Source of the DNA: a virus
DNA: 31,930 nt
IMG/VR virus record: IMGVR_UViG_3300030107_004720
Span: 1-31,930 of that record
Direction: 5' to 3' (one strand)
The notes under the pieces are model-generated. The model ran no database searches and was not told the DNA's origin. It saw nothing but the letters and a program-made list of their open reading frames with translations. Of this stretch, positions 2,293-20,201 are shown one piece after another. Positions within the stretch are counted from its first letter, which is position 1. The number at the start of each line of letters is the position of its first letter. A program made the position numbers and the translations under genes.

Positions 2293-3741
2293 ATGGCAAT
2301 TACAAGCGTTCCTGCGGGAACTATTACGCCCAACTCAACTCCAACCGCACTAGCATCTAATTACTTAGACTTTGCTGCGGGTACAAGTGACTGGGCACAA
2401 CAATATTTACCAGAACTTATGGAGAAAGAAGCAGAGATTTTTGGAAACAGAACTCTTTCTGGTTTTCTTTCACAAGTAGGTGCTGAAGAAGCTATGGCTG
2501 CTGATCAAGTAATTTGGTCTGAGCAAGGTAGATTACACATGGCTTTCAATGGAACATCAGTAAGTGGTGGTAATGGTGGTACAATTACAATAACTACAGA
2601 TATAGATGGTAATAATTATCAAACTGGTTCTACTAGATCACACCCTATCAGAAAAGGTGATATGGTATTAATATCTGATTCTACTACTACTACAACTGCT
2701 TACGTTGAAGGAATCAACAGTGCTGTAGCTACAAACACTATTGACGTGGGTACTTATACTGCCACAACTTTAATTAATGCTGGTATAGCTGATGGAGCTG
2801 TAACAGTATTAGTTTTTGGTTCTGAGTATGTAACGGGACAAGCTGGTAGAGATAATGGTAACGATCCTGCTCACAAAACCTACGGAAATCAACCAATTAT
2901 ATTAAAAGATATGTATGATGTATCAGGTTCTGATGCTGCTCATATTGGTTGGGTTGAAATTTCTGGAGAAGAAGGACAAAGCGGTTACTTATGGTACTTG
3001 AAGGCTGAAGGTGATACTAGAGCTAGATTTACTGATTACTTAGAAATGTCAATGTTAGAGGCTGAAAAAGTTAGTGGTACTACTCTAGTTGATTATCAAA
3101 CTTCTGGTATAGCTCCAAAAGGTACTGAAGGTTTATTTGCTGCTATTAAAGCAAGAGGTAACCAAAGTACTGGTATTACTGGTGTTAACGCTGCTACTGA
3201 TTTATCTGAGTTTGATTTAATGTTAGCAGAGTTTGATAGCAATGGTGCTATTGAAGAAAACATGATGTTTGTTGACAGGTCTACGTCTTTAGCGATAGAT
3301 GACATGTTAGCTTCTATGAATTCTTATGGTGCTGGTGGTACTTCTTATGGAGTGTTTAGTAACTCTGAAGATATGGCGTTAAATTTAGGCTTCTCTGGTT
3401 TTAGACGTGGATCTTATGATTTCTATAAGTCTGATTGGAAATATTTAAACGACAAAGCTGGAAGAGGTGCAATGATTGACACTGTAACTAATGTAAGAGG
3501 AGTTGTAGTACCAGCGGGTACATCTTCTGTTTATGACCAAACATTAGGTAAGAATATGAAACGACCATTTCTACATGTTAGATATAGAGCTTCACAAACT
3601 GAGTCTAGAAGATTAAAAACTTGGATCACTGGTTCGGTTGGTGGTGCTGTTACATCTGATTTAGACGCGATGGAAGTACACTATTTATCTGAAAGATGTT
3701 TAGTTACACAAGGTGCAAATAACTTTATGTTATTGAACTAA
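2293..3741 (+). CDS. Major capsid protein
   Basis: The 482-residue protein begins with an extended N-arm (MAITSVPAGTITPNSTPTAL) and a segment NYLDFAAGTSDWAQQYLPEL that I recognise from major head proteins of marine podoviruses and crAss-like phages. A beta-rich Ser/Thr/Gly insertion follows (about residues 85-175, including HPIRKGDMVLIS), which looks like the surface insertion domain of an HK97-fold subunit. The C-terminal part ends in LVTQGANNFMLLN, typical of these proteins. The gene follows the probable scaffold at 18 bases and is followed at once by a strong intrinsic terminator, as expected of the most highly expressed virion gene. The start is the first ATG of the frame, after A-rich sequence without Shine-Dalgarno. 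HK97 fold is family knowledge, not seen directly. Confidence 0.82.
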   Translation: MAITSVPAGTITPNSTPTALASNYLDFAAGTSDWAQQYLPELMEKEAEIFGNRTLSGFLSQVGAEEAMAADQVIWSEQGRLHMAFNGTSVSGGNGGTITITTDIDGNNYQTGSTRSHPIRKGDMVLISDSTTTTTAYVEGINSAVATNTIDVGTYTATTLINAGIADGAVTVLVFGSEYVTGQAGRDNGNDPAHKTYGNQPIILKDMYDVSGSDAAHIGWVEISGEEGQSGYLWYLKAEGDTRARFTDYLEMSMLEAEKVSGTTLVDYQTSGIAPKGTEGLFAAIKARGNQSTGITGVNAATDLSEFDLMLAEFDSNGAIEENMMFVDRSTSLAIDDMLASMNSYGAGGTSYGVFSNSEDMALNLGFSGFRRGSYDFYKSDWKYLNDKAGRGAMIDTVTNVRGVVVPAGTSSVYDQTLGKNMKRPFLHVRYRASQTESRRLKTWITGSVGGAVTSDLDAMEVHYLSERCLVTQGANNFMLLN

Positions 3742-5605: not shown

Positions 5606-6985
5606 ATGGCATTATTAACACAATCACAGGCAGAATACTATAATGATCAAGATTATGGTAATTACCAATTCACATCTTTAAAAGACTTAGTTAATCAATT
5701 CATGATTGGATATGTTGGTGATAATAAGTTGATAAGTAGAGTTAACAAAACAGATGTAATTTTCCATGCTAAAAGAGCATTGCAAGAATTATCTTTTGAT
5801 GTGTTTAAATCTTGTAAAGCGCAAGAATATGATATTCCAAGTAACTTAACAATGCCTTTACCTCAAGATTACGTTAATTACACTAAAATAAGTTGGGTAG
5901 ATAGTGCTGGCATAAAACACAGGTTATATCCAACTTTATGTAAAACAGGTAATCCAGACAGGTATCAACAAGATGCAAATGGTGATTTTAATTTTACTTC
6001 AGTCCTTGAAGGACCTGGTGATGGTAATTTAATAAATACTGGTGATTTATTAAATACAACATTAGAAGGTGGAACACAAGGATGGTGTGTAAACTGTGCT
6101 GCAAAAAGTGGTGTTTTTCAAGGTCGTAACGCTGTTTGGGGTCCTTCTAACGCTGCGGCTATATCTACATCCACAATGTGGCATCATTACCAAAATAAAC
6201 TTTGTCTTTATAATGGAACAAATTTTAGAACCATAAGATATACCGGTTTACCAATAGTTGATGGCGAAAAATATTCTTTAACTTTTACATTAAGTAATTA
6301 TGTTGCTGGTACTTATAGTTTTTTTCTCACTGATAGTAGCGGTTCACAAGTGCAAACAATTAATTATACTGCAGATGGAACTTATACTGTAGAAATAGAT
6401 ATGTCTACAGCTACATTTGTTACAGGGTGGACTCCTGGGACGTTATCTTTTAGAAATGACAACACGGGTTCAGGTAGTGACTCTGTATGTATAGATAATA
6501 TTTCTCTTGTAAAAGTAGGTGATGAAGCAAGCTCTACTACGTGGGATAATTATAGATCTAACACTCCTTCTGAAAACAATAATAATGACTACGAAGATGA
6601 CGTTTATTGGCCTTATGAAGGCGAGAGATATGGATTAGACCCTTCTCATGCTCAGGCTAATGGTTCGTTTTTTATAGATTGCAAACTAGGCAAAATACAT
6701 TTTAGTTCTAATGTAGCTGGAAAAACAGTTGTATTGGATTATATAAGTGATAGTCTTGGTACTGACGAAGAGATGCAAGTTCATAAATTTGCTGAAGAAG
6801 CTATGTATAAATGGATTTTATATGCTATAATATCAACAAGATTTGGTATTGCTGAGTCAATTGTAAGGCGTTATAAAAAAGAAAAATTTGCTGAAATTAG
6901 AAAAGCAAAATTAAGATTATCTAATATTAAGATAGAAGAAATAACTCAAATTTTAAGAGGTAAGTCTAAACAAATTAAACATTAA
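5606..6985 (+). CDS. Probable adaptor/tail protein with inserted carbohydrate-binding-like domain (459 aa)
   Basis: Residues 1-138 (SLKDLVNQFMIGYVGDNKLI, then HAKRALQELSFDVFKS and PLPQDYVNYTKISWVD) and residues ~340-459 (KIHFSSNVAGKTVVLDYISD, then EEAMYKWILYAIISTRFGI and a basic helical tail) form a typical marine-phage connector or gp4-like protein. Between them, residues 139-304 are a separate beta-rich unit. It begins NLINTGDLLNTTLEGGTQGW, contains GEKYSLTFTLSNYVAGTYSF, and ends near VCIDNISLVKV. That closing D-N-[IV]-S-L with a preceding Gly/Asn-rich loop is the pattern of CBM4/9-like (CenC-type) jelly-roll domains, which bind glycans. Without this unit the protein would be about 290 residues, close to its upstream neighbour. 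An Asn/Asp/Glu-rich linker (residues ~305-335) follows it. The core role is inferred from context; the insertion is read directly from the sequence. Confidence 0.65.
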   Translation: MALLTQSQAEYYNDQDYGNYQFTSLKDLVNQFMIGYVGDNKLISRVNKTDVIFHAKRALQELSFDVFKSCKAQEYDIPSNLTMPLPQDYVNYTKISWVDSAGIKHRLYPTLCKTGNPDRYQQDANGDFNFTSVLEGPGDGNLINTGDLLNTTLEGGTQGWCVNCAAKSGVFQGRNAVWGPSNAAAISTSTMWHHYQNKLCLYNGTNFRTIRYTGLPIVDGEKYSLTFTLSNYVAGTYSFFLTDSSGSQVQTINYTADGTYTVEIDMSTATFVTGWTPGTLSFRNDNTGSGSDSVCIDNISLVKVGDEASSTTWDNYRSNTPSENNNNDYEDDVYWPYEGERYGLDPSHAQANGSFFIDCKLGKIHFSSNVAGKTVVLDYISDSLGTDEEMQVHKFAEEAMYKWILYAIISTRFGIAESIVRRYKKEKFAEIRKAKLRLSNIKIEEITQILRGKSKQIKH

Positions 6986-6989
6986 TTAA

Positions 6990-9900
6990 ATGCCGGAAAT
7001 TAAACACCATTTTGCTAATGGTAGAATGAACAAGGATTTAGATGAAAGACTTGTTAAAAATGGAGAATATAGAGACGCTTGGAATGTACAGGTATCTACT
7101 TCAGAAGATTCTGATGTTGGTACTATACAAGGTGTAGTTGGTAATTCTTTAGTGAACATTACCAATCATGTGGGTTCACAAATAATACAATCAAACGATG
7201 TGTGTGTTGGATCTATTTCTGATGAAAAAAATGATTCTTTATACTGGTTTGTTGCTAGTAATCCTCTTGCTTCTGGACTTTCTTTACCTATTGGTTTTGG
7301 TGTTGAAACATATAGGGATTTAATATTAAAATACGACACAAGAACAAACACTACCACCCCCGTACTTGTTGATAGATATGCAACAATATTAGAAAACGCC
7401 GCGATTGACACTACTACTAATAGTCTTTTCGTTCAATTAAACACTTTGGGTGTAATAACAGTTACAGCAAGTACAAACATCTCCTCCTTATATCCAGGTT
7501 TATATTTAAGTTATCCAACCCCAGGTTTACCAGGCACAAATTTATTTGGTAATCAATCAATACAAATACAAAATATAGTTGGTAATACAATAGTATTGTC
7601 TAGTACAATAACACAAGTATATAACGGTGCGGCACTCACGGTTAATGATTTAGGTAATAATGATAATTTAACATTTTGGGGTGATCCAAATGGAGAGCGT
7701 GTTTTAAATTTTGGTTTATCAACACCAGGACCTTTACAACATCAAAGCATTACAGGTATAAATATAGTTGATGATTTATTATTCTGGACAGACAATAAAA
7801 CTGAACCTAAAAAAATAAGTATACCACGTAGTACACAAGGAACACATCCTAATGCTAGAACACATACTAACTACTCGGCTCCTGGAATATTTATACAACC
7901 AGGACAAGTATTACCTATTCAAGAAAAACATATAACATTAATAAAACGCCCACCATTAGAACCACCGACTGCAAACCCTGAGGCAATTGTACTACCAACA
8001 GCTACTGGATATACATTAAGTTTTGCTGTTAATTCTCAAAATCAAAGCTTAGGTAATAGAGATGTTGGAGATACTGTTATTTTAAACAATTTAATACCTA
8101 ATAACAATGGCGTGTTTCAAATAGGTAGCACATTGGCTTTTGTGTTAACATCTAGTGGATTAACGCCTCCTAATAATTATAATGTTCTTTTAGAAATAAT
8201 ATCTAATCATGGAGAAGAACACCCTACCTTAGGACCAGTTGGTTATGACACTTGGACGGCTAAAATAATATATATAGATGGAGGTTTAAACACGGCTGGT
8301 AATAGTTATGAAATTAGCGCTGTATCTCAAGAGTTAAGCGCAAATAAATTTAGATTTCCTAGATTTGCTCTTAGATATAGATATGCAGATGGTGAGTATT
8401 CTACCTTTTCACCTTTTACAGAAGTTGTGTTTATTCCAAGTAAGTTTGATTATTTACCGACTAAAGGTTATAATTTAGGAATGGAAAATACTATTCAATC
8501 TATTAAAATAAGTGATATTTTTACTGAAAACACACCTATTGATGTTAGTGAGATAGATATATTATTCAAAGATTCTACTAGTCCATCTATATACATTGTA
8601 GATACTTTAAAAAGAATACAAGATAATTTAAGTTTAACAACAACTTACACTGTTAACGCTGACATGATACATAGTATTTTGCCAGAAAATCAATTATTAA
8701 GACGATTTGATAATGTGCCTAGACAAGCACTAGCACAAGAAGTTATTGGTAATAGGATTGTTTATGGTAATTATTTACAAAATTATGATATTAGTTTTGA
8801 ACCTACGTTAGAAGTGGGTTATGTAGAAAGACAATCTATAAATGATTTTGTAGCGGCACCATCTGTAAAAAGTTTACGTAAATATACCTTAGGTATGAGT
8901 TTTGTTGATTTTTACGGAAGAGAAACACCTGTATTTAGCGATGAACAAAGCGAAATATTTATACCACAAGATAGATGTGGCACCTCTAATGCTATAACAG
9001 CTAAAAATACATCGGGTTCACCAGCGTGGGCAAAAGGATATAAATTTTATATAAAAGAAACTTCTAGTGAATACTATACTTTAGCTATGGATAATTTATA
9101 TGGTTCAGATGAGGGTGAAAACGTTTGGATATCTTTTCCAAGCGCAGATAGAAATAAGGTTGATGAAGATACTTTCCTAATACTTAAAAAAGAATTTGGA
9201 TCTGATTTACCGGTCTTAGAAGAAAATAGATATAAAATATTAGACATAGACAATGAAGCACCACCTCATATATCTGAAAATATAATAGAATTAGGTACTT
9301 GGGGAGGTGATCCTGGGAATGCTGCACCTTCTCCCCATGGTGGTAATACATCAATCCATCTTTTACTTAATGATTTAGCTAATCTACCTTCGCAAAACGC
9401 AAGAAGTTTTAGAATGGTTCAAAGTAGTGGTACTGATGGTTGGGATGATGGTGCAATTTCACTTCAAGGTTCTCTTGGATCTAGTTTTGATCCAACGTTT
9501 TATGTTAGATTTACAAAGCAAACATCTGTAGGAGCTGATATATACTCTGATTATTATCGAGTATCAACGTTTCAAGGTGATACTGCTAATTATATTATTA
9601 ATTTAGAAAAACAAATTAAAGAAAGTTGGATGTTAGCCGATCCACTTGGTAGCAGCGCATTAAACGCTTTAGAACCAACTTTAAATATTGAATTTAGCAC
9701 TGCTGTTGAAAGAAAAAAAGATCAATTTGAAGGTAGATTTTTTGTTAAAATACTAAAAGATAGTATTATTCTTGATAAATTTAATTTTACATCAGCTGGT
9801 TTAGCCACAGGTCTTATTCAAGACAATTTAGTGGCTGCTAGAACGTTTTTCTATTTAGCAGATGGTAGCGCTGATCTCAGTAATGGTGGTACAAATACAA

Positions 9901-12900
9901 CTGGAAATCCTTCTTCTGATTTAGTGACTGAATGGAAAAATAATATACAGTTTAATACTAGCGCTCCAACTTCAGGATGGTTTATAGATCAAGCTTTTTA
10001 TGGAGATACTGTTAATAAAAATATGTCTTCTTCTAAGTACGATGCTGGACCTGGTCGGGAATATACAGGTACAACTGGTTATAATAAAGGTATATATACT
10101 GAAAATGGTAAAACTTACATGGATTTATCATTTTCTGGCGTTGGACCTACAGAATCTATAGCATCAGATTCCCAAAAAGTAGCAGATGCTGGTTATGCGC
10201 TTTGTAGTGTGTCAGCCACACATATACAGAGGTACGGGGCAGTATCAACCCAACATCCAGACAAAAGATGGGCCGTTGGATCAAACGCAAACCCAGCAAA
10301 CGTTGGTGAATCAGATTTTGTTAGTCAACTTAAAGATAATACTAAATTTAAATTTACGCAAGATCCTGGTCAAGAATTATACACAATAGTTGGAACTCCA
10401 GAGGTATTTTATCATGACAATTATTATAACGGTGCTGACATATATAATTATACACATAATAACTTGACACCAAGTATAAACGGCGTCTCAATAAATCCAT
10501 GGAGTGGTATGCTTTTGTGGGCATATTCTAATAATTTATGTGATGTTAGTACTGGACCATTTGCACTTGGTGGAGCAGCTTTAGGTGTTTATAACACTTT
10601 TGATGGTTGGATAAATTTTTTAGATGATATTGGTAATCCAGCTAACAGAAGAACAAGATATAAAATACAATTAGACAAAGACCCTAGACAATCCCAATGG
10701 AACCCTCTTGTTCAAGTAGATAGTTCTACAAACTCTGGAGTTATTGAAATTATTGAACAAGAATCATTAAATCTTACAGAAAGATTTGAAGCTATTAACC
10801 CAGCTGTCTGGGAGACAGAGCCAAAAACAAAAGAAGGTTTAGATGTTTACTACGAGGCCTCTCCAGTTTTACCTACAAAATGGAATTTTGGACAAACAGG
10901 TGGTGATTATTTAAATCAAGATTATAACCCGTTTTTATTCGCACCAGTTGGTTCTGTAGTCACTGGGAGCACAACGGGTCATATTCCTAGTGGCACAACA
11001 GTTGTTAACTGGAAATACGATGTTGTTGAGTTATCAAATGCAGTTTTTCCTCTTGGTATTGTACCTTCAACTAGTTTTCAGTTAATATTTGAACATCCTA
11101 GCGGGATAGTAACAAGCGGTTCTGTTTTTGGTACGGTTGCTCCTTTTACTTCTGGTGGAAATTCTTTATTTGTAAAAATGAATTCTACGCCAGGTAGTAC
11201 TAGTGTACAATTAAGCTGGCATAATAGCTATGCTTTTGGTAATGGTGTTGAATCTAATAGAATTAGAGATAGTTTTAATCAACCAACAATAAATAACGGT
11301 GTTAAAGCATCTACGACTTTAGATGAGAAATACGAACCTAATAGACGTAAAAATGGATTAATATATTCTGGTATATATAACTCTACAACAAATACAAACA
11401 ATTTAAATCAGTTTATAACCGCTGAAAATATAACTAAAGATATAAATCCTACATATGGTAGTATCCAAAAACTACACGCTAGAGATACTGATTTAATAAC
11501 TTTATGTGAAGATAAAGTTTTAAAAATATTAGCTAGTAAAGACGCTTTGTTTAACGCCGATGGAAACCCTCAACTAACATCAACTAAAAAAGTTTTAGGT
11601 CAAGTTATACCTTTTGTTGGTGATTATGGTATATCTAAAAATCCAGAGTCATTTGCTCAAGAGTCTTATAGAAGTTATTTTACAGATAAACAAAGAGGAG
11701 TTGTTATGAGATTATCTAAAGATGGATTGACACCTATATCTGAACATGGTATGAGAGATTGGTTTCAAGATAATCTTAAAAACTCTTTATATTGTATTGG
11801 TAGTTATGATGATAAAAAACAAGAATATAATATAACTTTAAAAAGCGGAACTTTAGGAAGCGGTACGTTTGCTGATTGGGATAGTACTCTTACTGATGCT
11901 GTTACATTAAGTTTTAGTGAAAAATCAAAAGGTTGGGTTAGTTTTAAATCCTTTATTTTTGAAAATGGAATTAGTTGTTCTGGTGAATATTATACCATTA
12001 AAAACGGTGAAGTATGGAAACAACATAGTAAAAAGCATACTGATAATAGTGATTGGTATAATAATTTTTATAACGCAATAGCTCCAACTACTTTTGATGT
12101 AATACTTAACGATAATCCTGGTATTATTAAAAACTTCCACACGCTTAATTATGAAGGTAGTCAATCAAAAATAGATCAATTTGTAACTGGTACAAGTGGT
12201 GGTAATACTTACGATGATGGTGAATATTATAATTTAAGCGATAAAGCAGGTTGGTATGTAAACTCAATAATAACAGATGAAAATAAATCTACAGAAGATC
12301 GCGCGGCTTTAAATGAATTCATAGAAAAAGAAGGTAAATGGTTCAATTATCTTAAAGGAGAACCAATGAATCTAAGTAATCTAGATCCAAATAAATTTCC
12401 TATTCAAGGTATAGCTAGGGTTGATACAACAGCTATGACAACTGTATCGGGATGTACAAACCAACAAGCTATGAACTATAACGCGTCTGCAAATGTAGAT
12501 GATGGAAGCTGTAATCCACATGTGTTAGGTTGTACAGATAGTAGCCCAGGTCCAAACCCATTTGTAATATCAACTAGATTTCTTCCGACATCTCTCCAAA
12601 GAATAGGTGATTCCACAACTGTTCCTATGCCTCAAAACATGATGGCAATTACAAATAACCCTGTAACTCCAATAGCGCCTACCGTGAATTTCCTTAATTT
12701 ATATGGTTCGACGTTACTTCCTACACCGGGAACTAGTTATAACTTGTGTGATACGTACACGTCTCCTCATTATAATGATAACGACAGCCTTGAATTACAT
12801 GGTTCTTATACCGCTGGGTTAATGGGTAATCAAGCTATGTATGATTTGCAATACCCTCCTGGTAGTCAAACAAATGTTTTTGGGGCCAATTACACTTTAC

Positions 12901-15431
12901 CATTTACTTGGGGTACTTCACAATACTGTAGTAACCCTGGTATTCCATTAACCTTTACACAGGGTAATATAGCGCCACCACCAGCTCCATGTACAGCTGG
13001 ATACGCTGCTCTTAATTATAATCCATGCGCAACTAAAGATGATGGTAGTTGTACATATACTGGTTGTACAAATAGTTTGGCTATAAATTATGATCCAAAT
13101 GCATCAATAGATGATAGTAGTTGTGTTCTACCTGTTTATGGTTGTACGCTTGGTGCTGCTTTTAATTATGATCCTTTAGCTACTGTAGCTTGTGATGATC
13201 AATTTATAGGTTGTACATCAACGTCATCTCCAGCGTGTACTGGTGTTTACCCAACAAACCCTTCAACAGAAAACGGTTGTTGTAACTATAGCAATGTTGG
13301 ATGTATGGACTCTACAGCGTGTAATTATTGCCCAACTTGTAATGTTGCTGGTACGTGTGATTATAGTTGTTATGGTTGTACAAACCCGTTAGCGTGTGAT
13401 TATGATCCAACAGCTACTATAGACGATGGTAGTTGCACAATGTGTACTTATGGTTGTATGATAGAAACAGCCACTAATTATGCTGGACCCGTTAACAACG
13501 CTGGTACTGCTGACACACCTTGTGATGGAAACGTGCCTGGTTGTTTCCCACCAAACTGTACTGGACCAGGTAATAATGAATGTTGTGCTGGTGTTCAAGG
13601 CCCAATGGGTTGTACTGATGATGGTACTTTAGGTTTGCAGTCTAATATGTCTATGAATGCTTGGTGGGGAGGTTCAAATCCTAATACTGGTCCTAGTCCT
13701 GGTGGTTATACTACATTTGACTACCAAGCTTACACGGGTCTCCAAAACTATCCTGGTGACAATACAACCGGATGTCTACCACCTTGTGCGGCGTTAAACT
13801 ACCAAGTTGGAGTTGCTCATAGTGATGATGATGGTAGTTGTCAGTATAGAGATGGCTGCATGGTTCAAGTAGCTAATAATTATTCAGCTTTGTCAACACA
13901 TGATTGTAGTGGTACTTTAAATGGTCCTGATGATAGTTGTTGTGATTATCCAACTATAGGTTGTACAGCTGATTCTAGTGATAGCATGTATAGTTCTACA
14001 ACAGCTGGTACAACACAACCTACAAATACTGATTATGCTAACACCATGATATCTGGTTTCGCGGCTTGTAATTATAATTCATCAGCTACACTAGATGATG
14101 GATCATGTGAATGGAATAGCTGTTTAGGATGTCAAGATAATACATCTGGTTATAACCCAGATATACAAGGAAATAATAGTCTTGGTTCTGCCTGCGGGAC
14201 TTTAAGTTTAACAGGTAATACAGCTTGTTCTAATGATGGTTTTTTATGGACCAACGCTTTTCCTAATCATTGTCCTTATGTTAACGGAGTGGGATCAGCG
14301 TGTTGGTTAGGTTGGAATCCTCAAAATCCAAATTATTCTACACCAAGTGGGTACATGGCAACAAATTACAATCCAGCAAATAATATAATACCTAGTAATG
14401 GTTTATGTCAATACAACACAGGTTGTGCAGATAGCGGTAGCATTCCAAATACACTAAATAATTATACAGATATTAATGGTGTTCAACAAACATATGTAAA
14501 TAATTCAGCCGCAAACAATGGTGGTAACGTTACTTGTGGTGGTTTAAACGGTTCTTGTATACAAGGTGTACCAGCTTTAAATTATAATCCATCTGTTTCA
14601 CCAGAAAACGATGATGGTAGTTGTATATACCAAGTTGTTGGTTGTATGGATAATGGTAGTTTAAATCAAACCTGGTGGACAGATAATGGTAATAACTATA
14701 ATTATTCTACTTCAATTGGCCCAACTAACTACCAAGGTATTGCAGCAACAAACGCTGTTACTGGGGCAAATATTGATAATAATTTATGTACTTATCCACT
14801 TACGGGTTGTTTTGATAATACAGGTAATTCATTTGTACTAAGTTATGCTAGTGATTGGTTGTCAACGGGTAATACTACTTCTACAACTTTAGGTACAACT
14901 AGCGCTTACACACCACCAGGAGCAATAAATCACACGCCATCAGTTACTACTAATGCTCCGGGTACTTGGAGCTGGGGTAATACAGCGGCTTGTTGTTATA
15001 ACGCTGGGTGTATTCATCCAACAGCCGTTAATTTTGATGTAGCTGGATTAACGCAATCATCTACAACACCATTTTACACTGTAGATGTTAATAGTAGTGG
15101 TCAAGCTTGTGCTGATTGCGCAGGTACAGAGATTAAATTCTTTTTAACCAATGGGGTTTTAGATTATAACAAGGTAACCGCTCAGGCCGATACAAGTTGC
15201 TGTTGCTTTACAAAAGGATGTATGGACAGTACAGCTTGTAATTATAATCCAAACAACTGTATGGAAGATCCAAATAATCCTTGTGCTTATGATAGATATG
15301 CGTGTACAACAAGTGGTTGTGTTCAAGAGCCATGTGGAACGGTAGCTTCTAATCTAAACTATTCATCAATGTCTGCTTGTCAAACTGCTTGCACAACAAC
15401 AACAGGCCCTGGTACTAGTGGTGGAAATTAA
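6990..15431 (+). CDS. Giant tail muzzle / gp10-like stabilization protein with Cys-rich repeat tail (2813 aa)
   Basis: Residues 8-52 (FANGRMNKDLDERLVKNGEY, then DVGTIQGVVGN) are the hallmark opening of P22-gp10-like stabilization or crAss muzzle-type tail proteins. Residues ~1490-1690 (YGSIQKLHARDTDLI, YFTDKQRGVVMRLSKDG, LSFSEKSKGWVSFKSFIFE) carry the usual beta-propeller-like C-terminal part of that family. Between them is a long beta-rich, Asn/Thr-rich body. From Cys1822 to the end, about 990 residues are a degenerate array of roughly 17-19 Cys-rich units. The clearest read GCTNQQAMNYNASANVDDGS-C, GCTNPLACDYDPTATIDDGS-C and GCMDSTACNYNP. No signal peptide or membrane segment is seen, as expected of a virion protein. 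It starts four bases after the previous stop. The N-terminal body probably forms the distal tail, and the repeats probably project from it. The repeat tail is far longer than I would expect for the family and may have been gained from a host-like source. Confidence 0.72.
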   Translation: MPEIKHHFANGRMNKDLDERLVKNGEYRDAWNVQVSTSEDSDVGTIQGVVGNSLVNITNHVGSQIIQSNDVCVGSISDEKNDSLYWFVASNPLASGLSLPIGFGVETYRDLILKYDTRTNTTTPVLVDRYATILENAAIDTTTNSLFVQLNTLGVITVTASTNISSLYPGLYLSYPTPGLPGTNLFGNQSIQIQNIVGNTIVLSSTITQVYNGAALTVNDLGNNDNLTFWGDPNGERVLNFGLSTPGPLQHQSITGINIVDDLLFWTDNKTEPKKISIPRSTQGTHPNARTHTNYSAPGIFIQPGQVLPIQEKHITLIKRPPLEPPTANPEAIVLPTATGYTLSFAVNSQNQSLGNRDVGDTVILNNLIPNNNGVFQIGSTLAFVLTSSGLTPPNNYNVLLEIISNHGEEHPTLGPVGYDTWTAKIIYIDGGLNTAGNSYEISAVSQELSANKFRFPRFALRYRYADGEYSTFSPFTEVVFIPSKFDYLPTKGYNLGMENTIQSIKISDIFTENTPIDVSEIDILFKDSTSPSIYIVDTLKRIQDNLSLTTTYTVNADMIHSILPENQLLRRFDNVPRQALAQEVIGNRIVYGNYLQNYDISFEPTLEVGYVERQSINDFVAAPSVKSLRKYTLGMSFVDFYGRETPVFSDEQSEIFIPQDRCGTSNAITAKNTSGSPAWAKGYKFYIKETSSEYYTLAMDNLYGSDEGENVWISFPSADRNKVDEDTFLILKKEFGSDLPVLEENRYKILDIDNEAPPHISENIIELGTWGGDPGNAAPSPHGGNTSIHLLLNDLANLPSQNARSFRMVQSSGTDGWDDGAISLQGSLGSSFDPTFYVRFTKQTSVGADIYSDYYRVSTFQGDTANYIINLEKQIKESWMLADPLGSSALNALEPTLNIEFSTAVERKKDQFEGRFFVKILKDSIILDKFNFTSAGLATGLIQDNLVAARTFFYLADGSADLSNGGTNTTGNPSSDLVTEWKNNIQFNTSAPTSGWFIDQAFYGDTVNKNMSSSKYDAGPGREYTGTTGYNKGIYTENGKTYMDLSFSGVGPTESIASDSQKVADAGYALCSVSATHIQRYGAVSTQHPDKRWAVGSNANPANVGESDFVSQLKDNTKFKFTQDPGQELYTIVGTPEVFYHDNYYNGADIYNYTHNNLTPSINGVSINPWSGMLLWAYSNNLCDVSTGPFALGGAALGVYNTFDGWINFLDDIGNPANRRTRYKIQLDKDPRQSQWNPLVQVDSSTNSGVIEIIEQESLNLTERFEAINPAVWETEPKTKEGLDVYYEASPVLPTKWNFGQTGGDYLNQDYNPFLFAPVGSVVTGSTTGHIPSGTTVVNWKYDVVELSNAVFPLGIVPSTSFQLIFEHPSGIVTSGSVFGTVAPFTSGGNSLFVKMNSTPGSTSVQLSWHNSYAFGNGVESNRIRDSFNQPTINNGVKASTTLDEKYEPNRRKNGLIYSGIYNSTTNTNNLNQFITAENITKDINPTYGSIQKLHARDTDLITLCEDKVLKILASKDALFNADGNPQLTSTKKVLGQVIPFVGDYGISKNPESFAQESYRSYFTDKQRGVVMRLSKDGLTPISEHGMRDWFQDNLKNSLYCIGSYDDKKQEYNITLKSGTLGSGTFADWDSTLTDAVTLSFSEKSKGWVSFKSFIFENGISCSGEYYTIKNGEVWKQHSKKHTDNSDWYNNFYNAIAPTTFDVILNDNPGIIKNFHTLNYEGSQSKIDQFVTGTSGGNTYDDGEYYNLSDKAGWYVNSIITDENKSTEDRAALNEFIEKEGKWFNYLKGEPMNLSNLDPNKFPIQGIARVDTTAMTTVSGCTNQQAMNYNASANVDDGSCNPHVLGCTDSSPGPNPFVISTRFLPTSLQRIGDSTTVPMPQNMMAITNNPVTPIAPTVNFLNLYGSTLLPTPGTSYNLCDTYTSPHYNDNDSLELHGSYTAGLMGNQAMYDLQYPPGSQTNVFGANYTLPFTWGTSQYCSNPGIPLTFTQGNIAPPPAPCTAGYAALNYNPCATKDDGSCTYTGCTNSLAINYDPNASIDDSSCVLPVYGCTLGAAFNYDPLATVACDDQFIGCTSTSSPACTGVYPTNPSTENGCCNYSNVGCMDSTACNYCPTCNVAGTCDYSCYGCTNPLACDYDPTATIDDGSCTMCTYGCMIETATNYAGPVNNAGTADTPCDGNVPGCFPPNCTGPGNNECCAGVQGPMGCTDDGTLGLQSNMSMNAWWGGSNPNTGPSPGGYTTFDYQAYTGLQNYPGDNTTGCLPPCAALNYQVGVAHSDDDGSCQYRDGCMVQVANNYSALSTHDCSGTLNGPDDSCCDYPTIGCTADSSDSMYSSTTAGTTQPTNTDYANTMISGFAACNYNSSATLDDGSCEWNSCLGCQDNTSGYNPDIQGNNSLGSACGTLSLTGNTACSNDGFLWTNAFPNHCPYVNGVGSACWLGWNPQNPNYSTPSGYMATNYNPANNIIPSNGLCQYNTGCADSGSIPNTLNNYTDINGVQQTYVNNSAANNGGNVTCGGLNGSCIQGVPALNYNPSVSPENDDGSCIYQVVGCMDNGSLNQTWWTDNGNNYNYSTSIGPTNYQGIAATNAVTGANIDNNLCTYPLTGCFDNTGNSFVLSYASDWLSTGNTTSTTLGTTSAYTPPGAINHTPSVTTNAPGTWSWGNTAACCYNAGCIHPTAVNFDVAGLTQSSTTPFYTVDVNSSGQACADCAGTEIKFFLTNGVLDYNKVTAQADTSCCCFTKGCMDSTACNYNPNNCMEDPNNPCAYDRYACTTSGCVQEPCGTVASNLNYSSMSACQTACTTTTGPGTSGGN
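12450..15431 (+). repeat. Array of Cys-rich GC[TM]D...NYNP...DDGSC units within the tail protein
   Basis: Translated in the frame of the 2813-residue protein, this stretch encodes about 17-19 units opening with Gly-Cys-[Thr/Met/Phe/Gln/Ile]-x. Good copies continue with Ala-x-Asn-Tyr-[Asn/Asp]-Pro and end Asp-Asp-Gly-Ser-Cys, 20-30 residues apart. Others hold inserts of 40-100 residues. DNA coding for DDGSC recurs nearly unchanged (e.g. near 13040, 13423, 13828, 14611), giving short dispersed direct repeats that could recombine. The motif is known to me from secreted and surface proteins of Bacteroidota. Confidence 0.85.
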
Positions 15432-15458: not shown

Positions 15459-18400
15459 ATGCCATATAATATAGGAGATATAGGACCAGCTGGTGGAATT
15501 ATTTTCGCAACACCAAATAGTCCTGGTAATCCAACACAATATTATTTTGAAGCGGCTAAAGAAGATATATTAGCATCTACAACAGAACCGCCAAATTCAA
15601 ATACTTTGCAAGGTAATAAGTATATTGGGTGTGGTTATACCGCGCCTGGCCCTGTGCCACCGCCTGGTCAAAATCCATCTGTTTTAACTCATGGTGGTGA
15701 GTTTGGATGGTACCAACAAACACTAGCGACAACCACAGGTGTTGGTCAAGGTGCTTTAAATACCCAGCAAATAGTTCAAATGTTAACATATCCGTCTACC
15801 GGTAATCCGTTAATATCTACAAATTCAGTTGCCGCTTGGGATTGTTGGAATTATTCTTCACAAGGCCCTGGGGGTTCTTTTAACGATTGGTTTCTTGGTT
15901 CTTTAGATGAAATGTTATTAATGTTTGAAAATATAGGTCCTGCAGTTAATAATATACCTGGTTTTTTTACAGATGAACCTCTACATCCTTTTGCTTATTG
16001 GATATATTGGACTTCATCTACACCTGGAATGGAATTATCACCAACAACCAATAATACTTTATATACACAAGATTTAGCACACGCTGTTCATTCTAACGCG
16101 CAAAATGTTTACTTAGTTAGTAGATGTCAAACTTATACTGTTAGGCCGATAAGGAGATTTGTTGAAGATGTTTCTGGCGAACTTTCTGGATGTATGGATG
16201 TTAATGCTTGGAATTATGATCCAACTACAAATCAACCGTGTTCTAACTGTTGTCTTTACGAAGGTTGCCCAGATAACACCGCGTTAAATTATTTAGCTGG
16301 AGCAGACGGTTGTATTGTTCCACCAAATAATTTAATACCAGGCAATGTAGATTGTTGTGATTATCCAATATGTGGTTGTATGGATAATAGCTCCCCAGTT
16401 TCACCAGTTTGGGCAACAACTTTTAATTATAACCCCTTGGCTAATGCTGACTGCAATTGCGATGTTAACGGTAATGATATGAGTTGTTGTACATACTCTG
16501 GTTGTACTTCTATTACTAATCCTCCGGCATTAAACTACTGTGCCACTTGTACATTAAATTGTGACGGTACACCCTTAGGTACTACCGCTCCTGGGTGGGA
16601 TAGTTGTTGTGAAATAAACGAAGTACCTGGTTGTACTGATTCTAGCACTAATTCTTTAGGTGCTCCTTGGGCACAAAATTATAATGCTAACGCTACCCAT
16701 GATTGTAACGTGCAGGCTATAGGTACACTTAACCCTGGTTGGAATAGTTGTTGTACTTATATACATGGGTGCACAGATATGCTAGCAGTTAATTACGACC
16801 CGTTAGCTTATATAGACGATGGTAGTTGTGACTATATAAATGGATGTCCAGACTCAACGGCCTCAAATTATTGTGCAACATGTATAGATGATTGTGTTAG
16901 TAATAATATTAATCAACCAAATTACTGGTCTTTAGTTAACGCTGGTAGTATGCCTGGTTGGGATTCATGCTGTAGATATGGATCGGGTATAGAATATAAT
17001 TATAGAGATGGGAATGCAGGTTATCCAAGGCCAAATCATGTTAAGAATTATCCATTAGCGGTTCCAGGTTTAGCTGGATCAGCTAGGATTGATGGCACAG
17101 GTAGTGGGTTTAATTCAACGTTTGGACCTCAAGGAGCATTTAGTCCGTATCAAAGTTCGAGCAACCCGTCTCTTAGTAGGTCGGGGTTAATTGGATTAGG
17201 TATATTTGTTATAAAAATAGCAAGTAAAGACGCTATGGGTAATAGTTTTCTTCCAACTGACTGGATAGATGATCCTAATAATCCTGTGGGTTATACTTTT
17301 ACGATGTATAATATGGATAAGACTCTGATAGGTAAGTGGAAATATGACAAGTTGATTCAAGCTAGATGGTCTCATTCAGGTAGTTCTGCCGCTCAAATAA
17401 CTAATAATAATGATAACCAAAACATGCAGACCAAATCAAGTTGTACAGCTGGAAGTGTTCCTGGTGGTTGCGCTAATTATAGTCCTGGAAGTTACACAGC
17501 TCAATTAAACTGTGGTTCACCATTAATGGATCCAAATAACTTTAGTAGTATTAGTCAAGTTACAGAGGGTCAAAACACATTTGGAAATGATTATGCTAGG
17601 TTTATAACTTTAAAATTTGCAATGCAAAACGGTGGCATGCCAATACATTTGGCTGGTGATTATGAATTTGCTTATTATGGAGACCATGGAAAATACCACC
17701 ATCTTGGTGCTCCAACTATGTTTGGAGCTCAAGGTCCTGGTGTAATCTCTAGTTGGAATGGTGGGTCAAACCCAGATGTATACACAACTTCAACTGGTAA
17801 ACAAATAGCTTGCGCAGGAGCAACGCTTCAAGAGTTTTTTTATCAAAGAAACAAAAGAACTGCATCTGGCGCATATATAAAACTAGAAGGACCACCAACA
17901 CAAAATCCAAATTATCAATTTGCTGACATAAATGGAAACAATACAGATTTAACACACCTTCAATCAGTGTGCGATGAAACACACGGACAATGGTTAAAAC
18001 ATTCTCCAGGTTGTGGTCACCAAGGACCAAATACCTCTCCATTATCTCCAAGTCCTCCTAGTACAATTAACGCAAATGGTAATTGGCAATTACTCCAAAC
18101 AGATGGTGTTGGTGGACCTACCTCAACTGGTGTTCCAGGAGGTGTTCAAAATGAAATAGCTAAACATGGTACCACTGGTACCGTTGAGGCAGGCATGGGT
18201 CTTCCAGCTGGAAACGCACTAGGCACGCCTAATTTGTACCCTGTTTGGACTATACCTCCTGCACATTACAGTCATTTACCAACAACCGCTCTTCACGCTT
18301 GGTATGCTCAAATACCACCAACTAGTAGTAATTTAACGTTATACCAAAACTATTTAGATGGTTGGACTGGTGGGTGTGCAACAACAGATCAAAATTTAGG

Positions 18401-19820
18401 ACTTGATGGTAATAGTCTATACACTAATATTATAAATGATCCTAGTTTGAAAATTACTAGCTTTGATTTAAATGTAACAGATATATCTTTAGAATCTATC
18501 TCTAAAAACTTTGTTATTAAAGGTGATGCGGGAGCTACGTTTACCATGACTGTAACCAACGGTGCAAATGAGTACTATAATTTTACTACAGATACTTTTG
18601 GTAGTGCTCATTCTAGATTACTATGGGAAAAAATAGATTCTACAGGTATTTATAATGGAACTATATTATATCCTTCTGTTACCTCAGATGATACTTATAC
18701 TATTAATTTAACAGCTGAACCTTATTTTGAAACATCATTTGATACTAGCGTTTCAGAATCAGGTGCTCCAGTTATTTTAACACAAAAACAGTATGCAGAT
18801 TCTACCGCAACGTTTTCTTTAGCAACAACTAGTTATGGTAGTTATTATAATACTTTACCTAGTAATGTTGTTATAACTAGATCACCACATAAATCTGGAA
18901 TTAGCACAGCTGAAATATCTTGGACAACAACACTTTCAAGTAGAAGTTTTGTTATAAATAGACAACCATTAGAAACAGATTTTAAAGTAACAAAAACACA
19001 AACAGTTGACGGTGCTACTAGTAGTTCTAAATCAGTTGTTTTAGATGATATTTTTGGTTTAGTAGTTGGAATGGAAATAACAGCTGTATCAAGTGGTTCT
19101 TTAACAGCTTCTACAGAGGTAACTTATATTGACTACGATACCAAAACATTAACTATTAGTCAAGATAATACTTTTGCTGATGGCATAACATTAACATTTT
19201 CTGGCTATGGTACAGATGGTACAAAAGCTGTATATGGTAGTTCGTTTAAAATGAATAATTTAAAAGTTGTTTTAAGTGATGTTGACATATTGACTGATGA
19301 CACTAGTTCCAATGCTACTATACCTTTGGCTAATACTAATGGTTTATTAGCTATAACAACGCAGACAGTTGATGGTGATGTGTCTGAGTTGGTTACAGTA
19401 ACTTTAGATTCTGTAGCTAATTTACGTGTAGGACAAAAACTAGTTGCCTGTTCAGCATGTACACTTGTTGGAGAACCTGTAATAGAAAGTATAGATGGTA
19501 AAGTATTAACATTAAATTCAAAACAAAAATTTAACGATGGTGAAACCTTGTCTTTTGCTAATACAGAGATAAGTGGTATAGGTGTTGGTTGTTCTGGTAC
19601 AAAAACAACATATGTACATAGTGTTTCATCTGGAGCATCTGTTGTAGCTAAAGCGGGTGGTAGTGATGTTACTAATGATATTGAAAATGGACAAACTATT
19701 AAATTTACAAAATCTAGTAGAAGTGCTACTATAACAGCGGATGTTGAACTTCAAACGATTGGAAATACAGATTACACTACAACATTGCAATTGGATAATA
19801 TATTAACAGTAATAGCGTAA
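15459..19820 (+). CDS. Probable receptor-binding tail protein: DUF1566/lectin-like domain, Cys-rich repeats, beta-rich C-terminus (1453 aa)
   Basis: Residues 1-235 show the order of motifs of DUF1566/Lcl-type domains, which adopt a C-type-lectin-like fold. These are IGDIGPAGGIIFATP (6-20), YYFEAAKEDI, DWFLGSLDEM (143-152), YWTSS (183-187) and a closing VRPIRRF (228-234). Residues 244-507 hold seven Cys-rich units like those ending the upstream protein, several closing with GWDSCC. Residues ~510-990 are Gly/Asn/Pro-rich with no family I recognise. Residues ~1000-1453 (DLNVTDISLESISKNFVIKG...) are a beta-rich module I recall from marine phage structural proteins, with two tandem ~70-residue beta units inside. 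It starts 27 bases after the tail protein. A role in host recognition follows from the lectin-like domain and position; this is inference. No signal peptide is present. Confidence 0.68.
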   Translation: MPYNIGDIGPAGGIIFATPNSPGNPTQYYFEAAKEDILASTTEPPNSNTLQGNKYIGCGYTAPGPVPPPGQNPSVLTHGGEFGWYQQTLATTTGVGQGALNTQQIVQMLTYPSTGNPLISTNSVAAWDCWNYSSQGPGGSFNDWFLGSLDEMLLMFENIGPAVNNIPGFFTDEPLHPFAYWIYWTSSTPGMELSPTTNNTLYTQDLAHAVHSNAQNVYLVSRCQTYTVRPIRRFVEDVSGELSGCMDVNAWNYDPTTNQPCSNCCLYEGCPDNTALNYLAGADGCIVPPNNLIPGNVDCCDYPICGCMDNSSPVSPVWATTFNYNPLANADCNCDVNGNDMSCCTYSGCTSITNPPALNYCATCTLNCDGTPLGTTAPGWDSCCEINEVPGCTDSSTNSLGAPWAQNYNANATHDCNVQAIGTLNPGWNSCCTYIHGCTDMLAVNYDPLAYIDDGSCDYINGCPDSTASNYCATCIDDCVSNNINQPNYWSLVNAGSMPGWDSCCRYGSGIEYNYRDGNAGYPRPNHVKNYPLAVPGLAGSARIDGTGSGFNSTFGPQGAFSPYQSSSNPSLSRSGLIGLGIFVIKIASKDAMGNSFLPTDWIDDPNNPVGYTFTMYNMDKTLIGKWKYDKLIQARWSHSGSSAAQITNNNDNQNMQTKSSCTAGSVPGGCANYSPGSYTAQLNCGSPLMDPNNFSSISQVTEGQNTFGNDYARFITLKFAMQNGGMPIHLAGDYEFAYYGDHGKYHHLGAPTMFGAQGPGVISSWNGGSNPDVYTTSTGKQIACAGATLQEFFYQRNKRTASGAYIKLEGPPTQNPNYQFADINGNNTDLTHLQSVCDETHGQWLKHSPGCGHQGPNTSPLSPSPPSTINANGNWQLLQTDGVGGPTSTGVPGGVQNEIAKHGTTGTVEAGMGLPAGNALGTPNLYPVWTIPPAHYSHLPTTALHAWYAQIPPTSSNLTLYQNYLDGWTGGCATTDQNLGLDGNSLYTNIINDPSLKITSFDLNVTDISLESISKNFVIKGDAGATFTMTVTNGANEYYNFTTDTFGSAHSRLLWEKIDSTGIYNGTILYPSVTSDDTYTINLTAEPYFETSFDTSVSESGAPVILTQKQYADSTATFSLATTSYGSYYNTLPSNVVITRSPHKSGISTAEISWTTTLSSRSFVINRQPLETDFKVTKTQTVDGATSSSKSVVLDDIFGLVVGMEITAVSSGSLTASTEVTYIDYDTKTLTISQDNTFADGITLTFSGYGTDGTKAVYGSSFKMNNLKVVLSDVDILTDDTSSNATIPLANTNGLLAITTQTVDGDVSELVTVTLDSVANLRVGQKLVACSACTLVGEPVIESIDGKVLTLNSKQKFNDGETLSFANTEISGIGVGCSGTKTTYVHSVSSGASVVAKAGGSDVTNDIENGQTIKFTKSSRSATITADVELQTIGNTDYTTTLQLDNILTVIA
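16188..16980 (+). repeat. Second array of seven Cys-rich units
   Basis: Seven units open with GCMD, GCPD, GCMD, GCTS, GCTD, GCTD and GCPD, and close with paired Cys (NCC, DCC, SCC) or DDGSC. Compared with the preceding gene, units here more often carry a doubled Cys and a repeated PGWDSCC/PGWNSCC closing, suggesting local duplication. The unit GCTDMLAVNYDPLAYIDDGS-C is near-canonical. Confidence 0.82.
19002..19568 (+). repeat. Two tandem beta-module repeats in the C-terminus of the receptor-binding protein
   Basis: Residues 1182-1251 and 1303-1370 align by eye. Each opens TVDG, continues with a V-x-L-D-[DS] strand, a GLVVGM / NLRVGQ turn, a pair of alternating strands, KTLTI / KVLTL, then FADGITLTFS / FNDGETLSFA. 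They are two copies of a small beta-sandwich-like domain separated by about 50 residues. Confidence 0.7.
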
Positions 19821-19823
19821 ATT

Positions 19824-20201
19824 ATGCCTTTAACACTAACATTCCCACAGGGAGATAAAATAAACACATCGGTAGCGGTAGGAGACAAATTGTATTTTGT
19901 TGCAACGCAAGCAAGTGGTAGCTTTTCAACAGCAACAATAGGTAATGTTCAAGAGGCTGGTATTATAACCTCTGTAAGTAGGATTAACGCTACCCCTACA
20001 ACTGGTCATACTATAATTATTAACCCCATAACTCCAACTTTAACAATTCCTAACGGTTCTTTTATATTATTTTCTAAAGATAACACCGTTAACTCAACTA
20101 GCGTAATGGGTTATTATGCTAAAACAAAGTTTATTAATTGGAGTTCTAAAAAGTTTGAACTGTTTAGTGTTGGGTCTGAAGTTTCGTTAAGTAGTAAATA
20201 A
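19824..20201 (+). CDS. Small beta-rich virion protein (125 aa), unknown function
   Basis: The gene starts three bases after the previous stop. The product is almost entirely alternating hydrophobic and polar residues (MPLTLTFPQGDKINTSVAVG..., then IIINPITPTLTIPNGSFILF), so a beta fold is expected. The end, GYYAKTKFINWSSKKFELFS followed by VGSEVSLSSK, is a pattern I recall from small proteins next to tail-fibre-like genes in marine phages, where it is usually labelled structural. There is no Cys, no membrane segment and no catalytic motif. Coupling to the upstream gene suggests it may be a partner or capping subunit of the receptor-binding protein, which is inference only. Confidence 0.68.
   Translation: MPLTLTFPQGDKINTSVAVGDKLYFVATQASGSFSTATIGNVQEAGIITSVSRINATPTTGHTIIINPITPTLTIPNGSFILFSKDNTVNSTSVMGYYAKTKFINWSSKKFELFSVGSEVSLSSK

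Follow-up and report, generated by a model that had tools for sequence, protein, structure and literature searches.

What is a Cys-rich repeat of the kind found in Bacteroidota surface proteins doing at the end of a phage tail protein? The question is raised by a 31,930-bp fragment of the IMG/VR virus record IMGVR_UViG_3300030107_004720, which, at its full length, we refer to as the window. All window features discussed here lie on the plus strand. The gene order is the C-terminal part of a portal gene, at the contig edge (102..1028; phrog_6547, E 9e-52), genes for structural proteins, including a virion structural protein (2293..3741; phrog_13704) syntenic with gp093 of Cellulophaga phage phi38:1, genes for two ring-side proteins, a gene for a 2813-aa muzzle-type tail protein (6990..15431), one for a 1453-aa protein (15459..19820), a 125-aa ORF (19824..20201) and more virion genes, the last of which has a product of 2856 aa. 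The virion protein encoded upstream of the muzzle (5606..6985; phrog_13977) is syntenic with phi38:1 gp096, and the small 125-aa ORF (phrog_18548) is conserved and, in relatives, comes after the variable tail of the muzzle. Phage phi38:1 and the Flavobacterium elemo phages are annotated with the same gene order. Since NCBI taxonomy places phi38:1 in the Pervagoviridae, outside Crassvirales, we use "crAss-like" for the virion module and not as a taxonomic term.

The initial annotation recognised a muzzle-like body in the 2813-aa protein, and this was borne out by profile matches, structure comparison and synteny. Residues 1–1820 (6990..12449, as delimited by aligning complete homologues to a body HMM) match phrog_14478 with an E value of 2e-129. 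The domain PF25729 (crAss_MUZ_C) was detected in 30 of 30 muzzle homologues, with a best E value of 4e-19; in the window protein alone it scores 0.0014, below the curated cut-off, at residues 1690–1789 (12057..12356). Foldseek, run on a low-confidence model of residues 1345–1846, returned the PhicrAss001 muzzle (7qol_P and 7qok_A) as its two best matches (E 2e-6), and VIA-align placed residues 203–311 of this low-confidence model onto residues 1077–1217 of gp44 (Z 9.8, 90 residues), a region that follows IG2 in the published domain order (PMC10172136). The C-terminus of the body is poorly modelled (pLDDT 50), and searches of the body against PDB sequences with phmmer and with profiles gave no match. 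The position of the gene after portal, capsid and ring-type genes is shared by the window, phi38:1 and the elemo phages. Together, the PHROG match, PF25729 in the homologues, the Foldseek result and synteny support the conclusion that the body is a crAss-type muzzle.

The Cys-rich array occupies 12450..15431, as initially annotated. Its first unit, GCTNQQAMNYNASANVDDGSC, starts at residue 1821 (window 12450), 31 residues past the MUZ_C domain, and the reading frame runs uninterrupted to its stop codon at 15431. These last 993 residues contain 74 Cys, as against a total of 7 in the first 1800 residues, summed over blocks of 100. An HMM built from the units of relatives, in which G1, C2, A7, N9, Y10, A14, D17, D18 and C21 are the conserved positions, detected 11 array units at E<0.001 and 13 when the threshold was relaxed to E<0.1. 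It found no unit in the body, and 200 shuffled versions of the array residues gave on average 0 units at E<0.001. The count of 17–19 units that had been proposed holds for segments that begin with GC (17 to 21, depending on whether a regular expression or a relaxed HMM is used), but only about four units are complete: those starting at residues 1821 (to 1842; 12450..12515, E 2e-14), 2006 (to 2024; 13005..13061, E 8e-10), 2025 (to 2047; 13062..13130, E 3e-13) and 2129 (to 2151; 13374..13442, E 8e-13). The other segments are half-units or degenerate, with spacers of up to 150 aa between them. No recognisable domain was found inside the array. When two canonical arrays and the array of the next gene were compared with Pfam, the matches up to E 10 did not include thrombospondin type 3 repeats. 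A second Cys motif (C...C...G-x-Y-S-S-L-x-x-C-x-x-x-C) can be read at the extreme C-terminus of the muzzle (15291..15395; C..GC...C...NYSSMSACQTAC); similar motifs were seen by eye in L002, L161 and L192. The GC rise in the array sits at codon position 2, that is, in amino-acid composition. We rejected an explanation of the rise by recent transfer, since array GC3 is 0.19, against 0.15–0.20 in the rest of the phage.

The array does form the last third of the muzzle, as had been noted, but it is not the only one in the window. The 1453-aa product of the next gene carries a second, shorter array at residues 244–505 (16188..16973), with 6 units at E<0.01 between residues 244 and 471. Its N-terminus is weakly Lcl_C-like (E 0.029), and its conserved C-terminal part (residues 999–1453; 18453..19817) corresponds to a standalone gene of ~420 aa in L166, L179, L137 and L162, to which its last ~450 residues match by blastp with E values of 1e-44 to 3e-31. 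The reverse transcriptase domain PF00078, sought as the mark of a diversity-generating retroelement acting on Lcl_C/DUF1566-type targets, was not seen in the window or in 17 related contigs, all of them fragments.

To place the repeat, we searched cellular and viral sequences. In a unit-profile search of genome contigs, the best 79 cellular loci were almost all from Flavobacteriales or other Bacteroidota, the remainder being a few metagenome-assembled genomes labelled as candidate-phyla bacteria, Balneolaceae or Euryarchaeota. Within one such order, 46 of 100 genomes encode arrays at E<1e-12, some in more than 50 places; in a phylum-wide sample, only 13 of 198 genomes match at E<1e-6. Two host repeat proteins were examined for sorting signals, and each has a T9SS type A sorting domain. 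The repeat thus does match Bacteroidota surface proteins, as the initial annotation had proposed, and its host-type origin is well supported in kind; the GC3 of the array is that of the phage and gives neither a date nor a direction. To call the repeat foreign to phage tails was too strong, since it recurs in many marine phages: it stands behind the muzzle in at least 20 homologues, in neighbouring genes, in cyanophage structural proteins and in hundreds of marine viral contigs, with at least 552 places in viral contigs encoding it. In the papers searched, nothing relevant was found on DDGSC, GCTDPTA or phage Cys-rich repeats. Other viral contigs of 23–246 kb (L148, L170, L171, L174 and L189) have GCTD-repeat proteins whose T9SS sorting domains score above the curated cut-off; L174 also encodes a DNA polymerase and L170 a virion protein. 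In L148, L171, L190 and L209, many genes open with a common leader, MIKLKxIL.E, possibly a targeting or packaging leader.

Comparison of related muzzles showed that their tails are modular. Complete homologues all reach position 1768–1794 of the 1795 positions of the body profile, all 57 bodies in our tree extend to the end of the shared profile, and no DDG[ST]C unit precedes the body end in the tree set. Past this constant fusion point, a muzzle stops at once or after a short end, continues for hundreds of residues without Cys, or carries a Cys array. In a maximum-likelihood tree, 20 of the 29 muzzles in one clade (SH-aLRT 97) bear arrays, a share drawn from a set enriched for arrays because some members were fetched via the repeat itself, and none of the 26 muzzles in its sister clade does; repeats are thus not a fixture of homologous muzzles. 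The array label requires 6 changes on the tree, at least 3 of them forced by well-supported branches. Among 33 contigs chosen by an unrelated gene, at least 10 have repeats in the frame of the muzzle itself. Where the muzzles of L163 and L181 are bare, the array is found in the next gene instead. Array-bearing tails range from 136 to 1163 aa. Most closely related pairs show greater divergence in the tail than in the final 450 body residues.

Leucine-rich repeats (LRR; L004, E 6e-10), an Fn3 domain (L135, E 1e-7) or Lcl_C-type domains stand after or within the arrays of relatives. An Lcl_C domain is encoded in the muzzle-adjacent gene of L163 (E 5e-6), and the L163 stretch that bears it has a homologue at the tail end of the L136 muzzle (31%, E 1e-11). 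Arrays end without a further domain in L003, L137, L166 and L179. Two other muzzle architectures were seen: L025, L035 and L037 encode muzzles of 3300–3450 aa with no tail but with ~1500 additional residues ahead of the final body section, and in L153, L156 and L165 the body is spread over two or three ORFs, the final one of which bears a Cys array in L153 and L156.

We modelled five units of the L137 muzzle tail with AlphaFold2. The pLDDT of 92 with a pTM of 0.43 predicts firm beads whose mutual orientation is uncertain. The best PDB profile match of the unit is MPEG1/perforin-2, over 24 residues (E 0.0012). A structure search also ranked MPEG1 first, over 24 residues at 0.5–0.6 Å rmsd and 45–46% identity, with a Foldseek E value of 1.7 that is not significant alone; VIA-align on the small unit gave no match with a Z of 2 or more. 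By residue numbers, the matching segment falls within the EGF-like hinge that links the MACPF domain to P2 (PMC6989145).

Related phages encode a further repeat gene, in an exported cassette that L161, L138, L179 and L151 carry downstream of the region covered by the window. In four array-bearing contigs, the giant last virion gene, before whose downstream region the window ends, is followed by a cassette encoding a conserved ~350-aa protein, a ~92-aa protein, a signal-peptide-like thioredoxin-fold protein and an exported-type Cys-repeat protein of 690–1080 aa, with a peptidase M15 gene close by. Members of these families include the ~350-aa protein at L214 3166–4260 (A5) and its relatives, thioredoxin-fold proteins at L213 6898–7266, L214 4553–4915 and L215 6053–6376, and exported repeat proteins at L213 7271–10510, L214 5423–7723 and L215 6980–9043 and in L217–L296. 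In L213, the repeat protein matches a T9SS sorting domain (E 7e-11); 6 of 30 exported repeat proteins match Por_Secre_tail and 8 of 30 a MAM domain. Among 80 viral loci, 46 have at least 4 kb after the ~350-aa protein, and all 46 hold the thioredoxin-like and repeat proteins. In the thioredoxin-like proteins, which always neighbour the exported repeat protein, Asn replaces each active-site Cys (FNAGWNxxN; NxxN for CxxC). The ~350-aa protein was found in at least 542 viral places and is 56–84% identical to its first member across contigs of differing gene content; three members gave no Pfam match over the cut-off, and a search for the protein in 199 host-order genomes, run without a positive control, gave no match. 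We also considered that the muzzle array was copied from the exported repeat gene of the phages themselves. This was not supported, since 81 of 83 muzzle units are nearer to host units (in a comparison with only 23 exported units), and neither repeat gene is obviously copied from the other within the phage. Marine crAss-like phages might use one host-type Cys-repeat twice in the infection cycle, as a matched pair on the two sides of infection: once on the muzzle of the virion and once on an exported, T9SS-type surface protein of the lysis region, encoded together with the ~350-aa and NxxN thioredoxin-like proteins. We regard this as unlikely; if true, the pair could, for example, control re-adsorption, superinfection or release.

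How might such an array work on the virion? Our best reading is that it would form a disulphide-bonded, host-type bead string serving as spacer or adhesin on the tail, most likely a stalk that bears host-binding surfaces. Small mini-domains of disulphide type, as in exported Flavobacteriales surface proteins, are here fused to the muzzle C-terminus. The tail of PhicrAss001 ends in six muzzles, and disulphides stabilise the tail barrel and hubs (PMC10172136); by analogy, each muzzle hexamer would carry six strings, and disulphides in the window array are plausible, since such bonds stabilise the PhicrAss001 tail, and would be expected to form after virions have left the cell. The T7 nozzle has as its C-terminal domain an adaptor-facing platform adjoining the fibre dock (PMC6702177), and the ring-joining and propeller domains of PhicrAss001 resemble that nozzle. 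Because of this orientation and the PhicrAss001 domain order, we infer that the array would leave the muzzle at its barrel-proximal, ring-joining side, the side to which T7 fixes its fibres, as six lateral strings. These semi-flexible stalks would place adhesive surfaces near the host envelope. Such surfaces would be offered by the units, by the spacers inserted among them and, where relatives have them, by LRR, Fn3 or Lcl_C-like domains at the end; arrays would be gained, lost and lengthened as a host-range module. The length variation, the LRR, Fn3 and Lcl_C-like fusions and the re-use of a host surface module fit such a stalk or adhesin; the degenerate state of the window array, with its roughly four complete units, irregular spacers and no recognisable domain, speaks against this reading. 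On balance, we give the semi-flexible stalk or adhesin acting as a host-range module an even chance.

The bead string could instead be purely structural, stiffening and lengthening the tail end through a capsule or S-layer while separate fibres do the binding. The firm unit, with its uncertain mutual orientation, and the role of the one matching MPEG1 segment as a hinge between domains would suit a spacer of this kind, as would the arrays of L004 and L136, which stand between the body and another domain; the arrays that have no domain after them and the long irregular inserts in the window do not, and we consider a structure-only role somewhat unlikely. A further alternative is that the units are merely tolerated as a drifting insertion at an exposed C-terminus. 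Degenerate units, strong length variation and several bare relatives are what such drift would produce, but many relatives keep the Cys, Gly, Asn and Asp positions, deeply diverged muzzles repeatedly bear the array, and L163 and L181, whose muzzles are bare, have it in an adjacent gene. We consider passive insertion very unlikely.

Two other proposals concern what the units themselves might do. They might dock on the GCTD...DDGSC surface proteins of the host that they copy, an idea favoured by the dozens of such arrays in hosts and by muzzle units being closer to host units than to the phages' own exported ones. Such docking would need the repeat to self-associate, and 54 of the 100 Flavobacteriales genomes sampled lack the repeat; we judge such mimicry distinctly unlikely. 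The initial annotation had also suggested a possible switch, in which disulphides would close only after lysis. On this view, the units would be reduced and loose as long as they are in the cytoplasm, and their closure would arm the tail. The 74 Cys in a cytoplasm-made protein and the disulphides in the PhicrAss001 tail (PMC10172136) are compatible with this, but ordinary oxidation after lysis suffices, a redox enzyme was not found in the window, and the exported thioredoxin-like proteins of relatives have no CxxC. A functional redox switch is speculation, and highly improbable.

The conserved muzzle, fixed fusion point and interchangeable tails make this locus a defined host-recognition candidate in an uncultured marine crAss-like group. 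A Bacteroidota surface-protein repeat on a virion would show that adhesion modules are exchanged between phages and hosts, and a small Cys-rich module with its best PDB match in perforin-2 offers a testable building block.

Compared with known systems, the Cys array is a striking yet not unique decoration of a known tail protein. The muzzle of PhicrAss001, gp44 (PDB 7QOK/7QOL; PF25729/PF25731), is alike in its body, in the propeller region and C-terminal domain, and in gene order. Its description mentions no Cys array, and the length variation reported there comes from insertions in the crass and IG2 domains rather than from C-terminal arrays (PMC10172136). Muzzles of phi38:1 (gp097) and of the elemo phages are syntenic homologues with about 32–33% identity, but they end in a C-terminal extension of ~100 aa without Cys. 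The GCTDPxAxNYDPxAxxDDGSC arrays of Flavobacteriales T9SS proteins resemble the muzzle array in their unit, its length of about 23–27 residues and its Cys spacing. Unlike the muzzle, which lacks both features, those proteins have a signal peptide and, in two of two cases, a T9SS sorting domain; the sorting domain (PF18962/TIGR04183), which viral and host controls match, is absent from the product of the next gene as well. In MPEG1/perforin-2, the segment that matches the unit is a single copy within a eukaryotic pore-former. A virion structural protein of cyanophage S-CAM3 (gp232, 517 aa) likewise carries two GCxD..NY units; it differs in coming from a Synechococcus myovirus and in being an unrelated protein with an Ig-like remainder.
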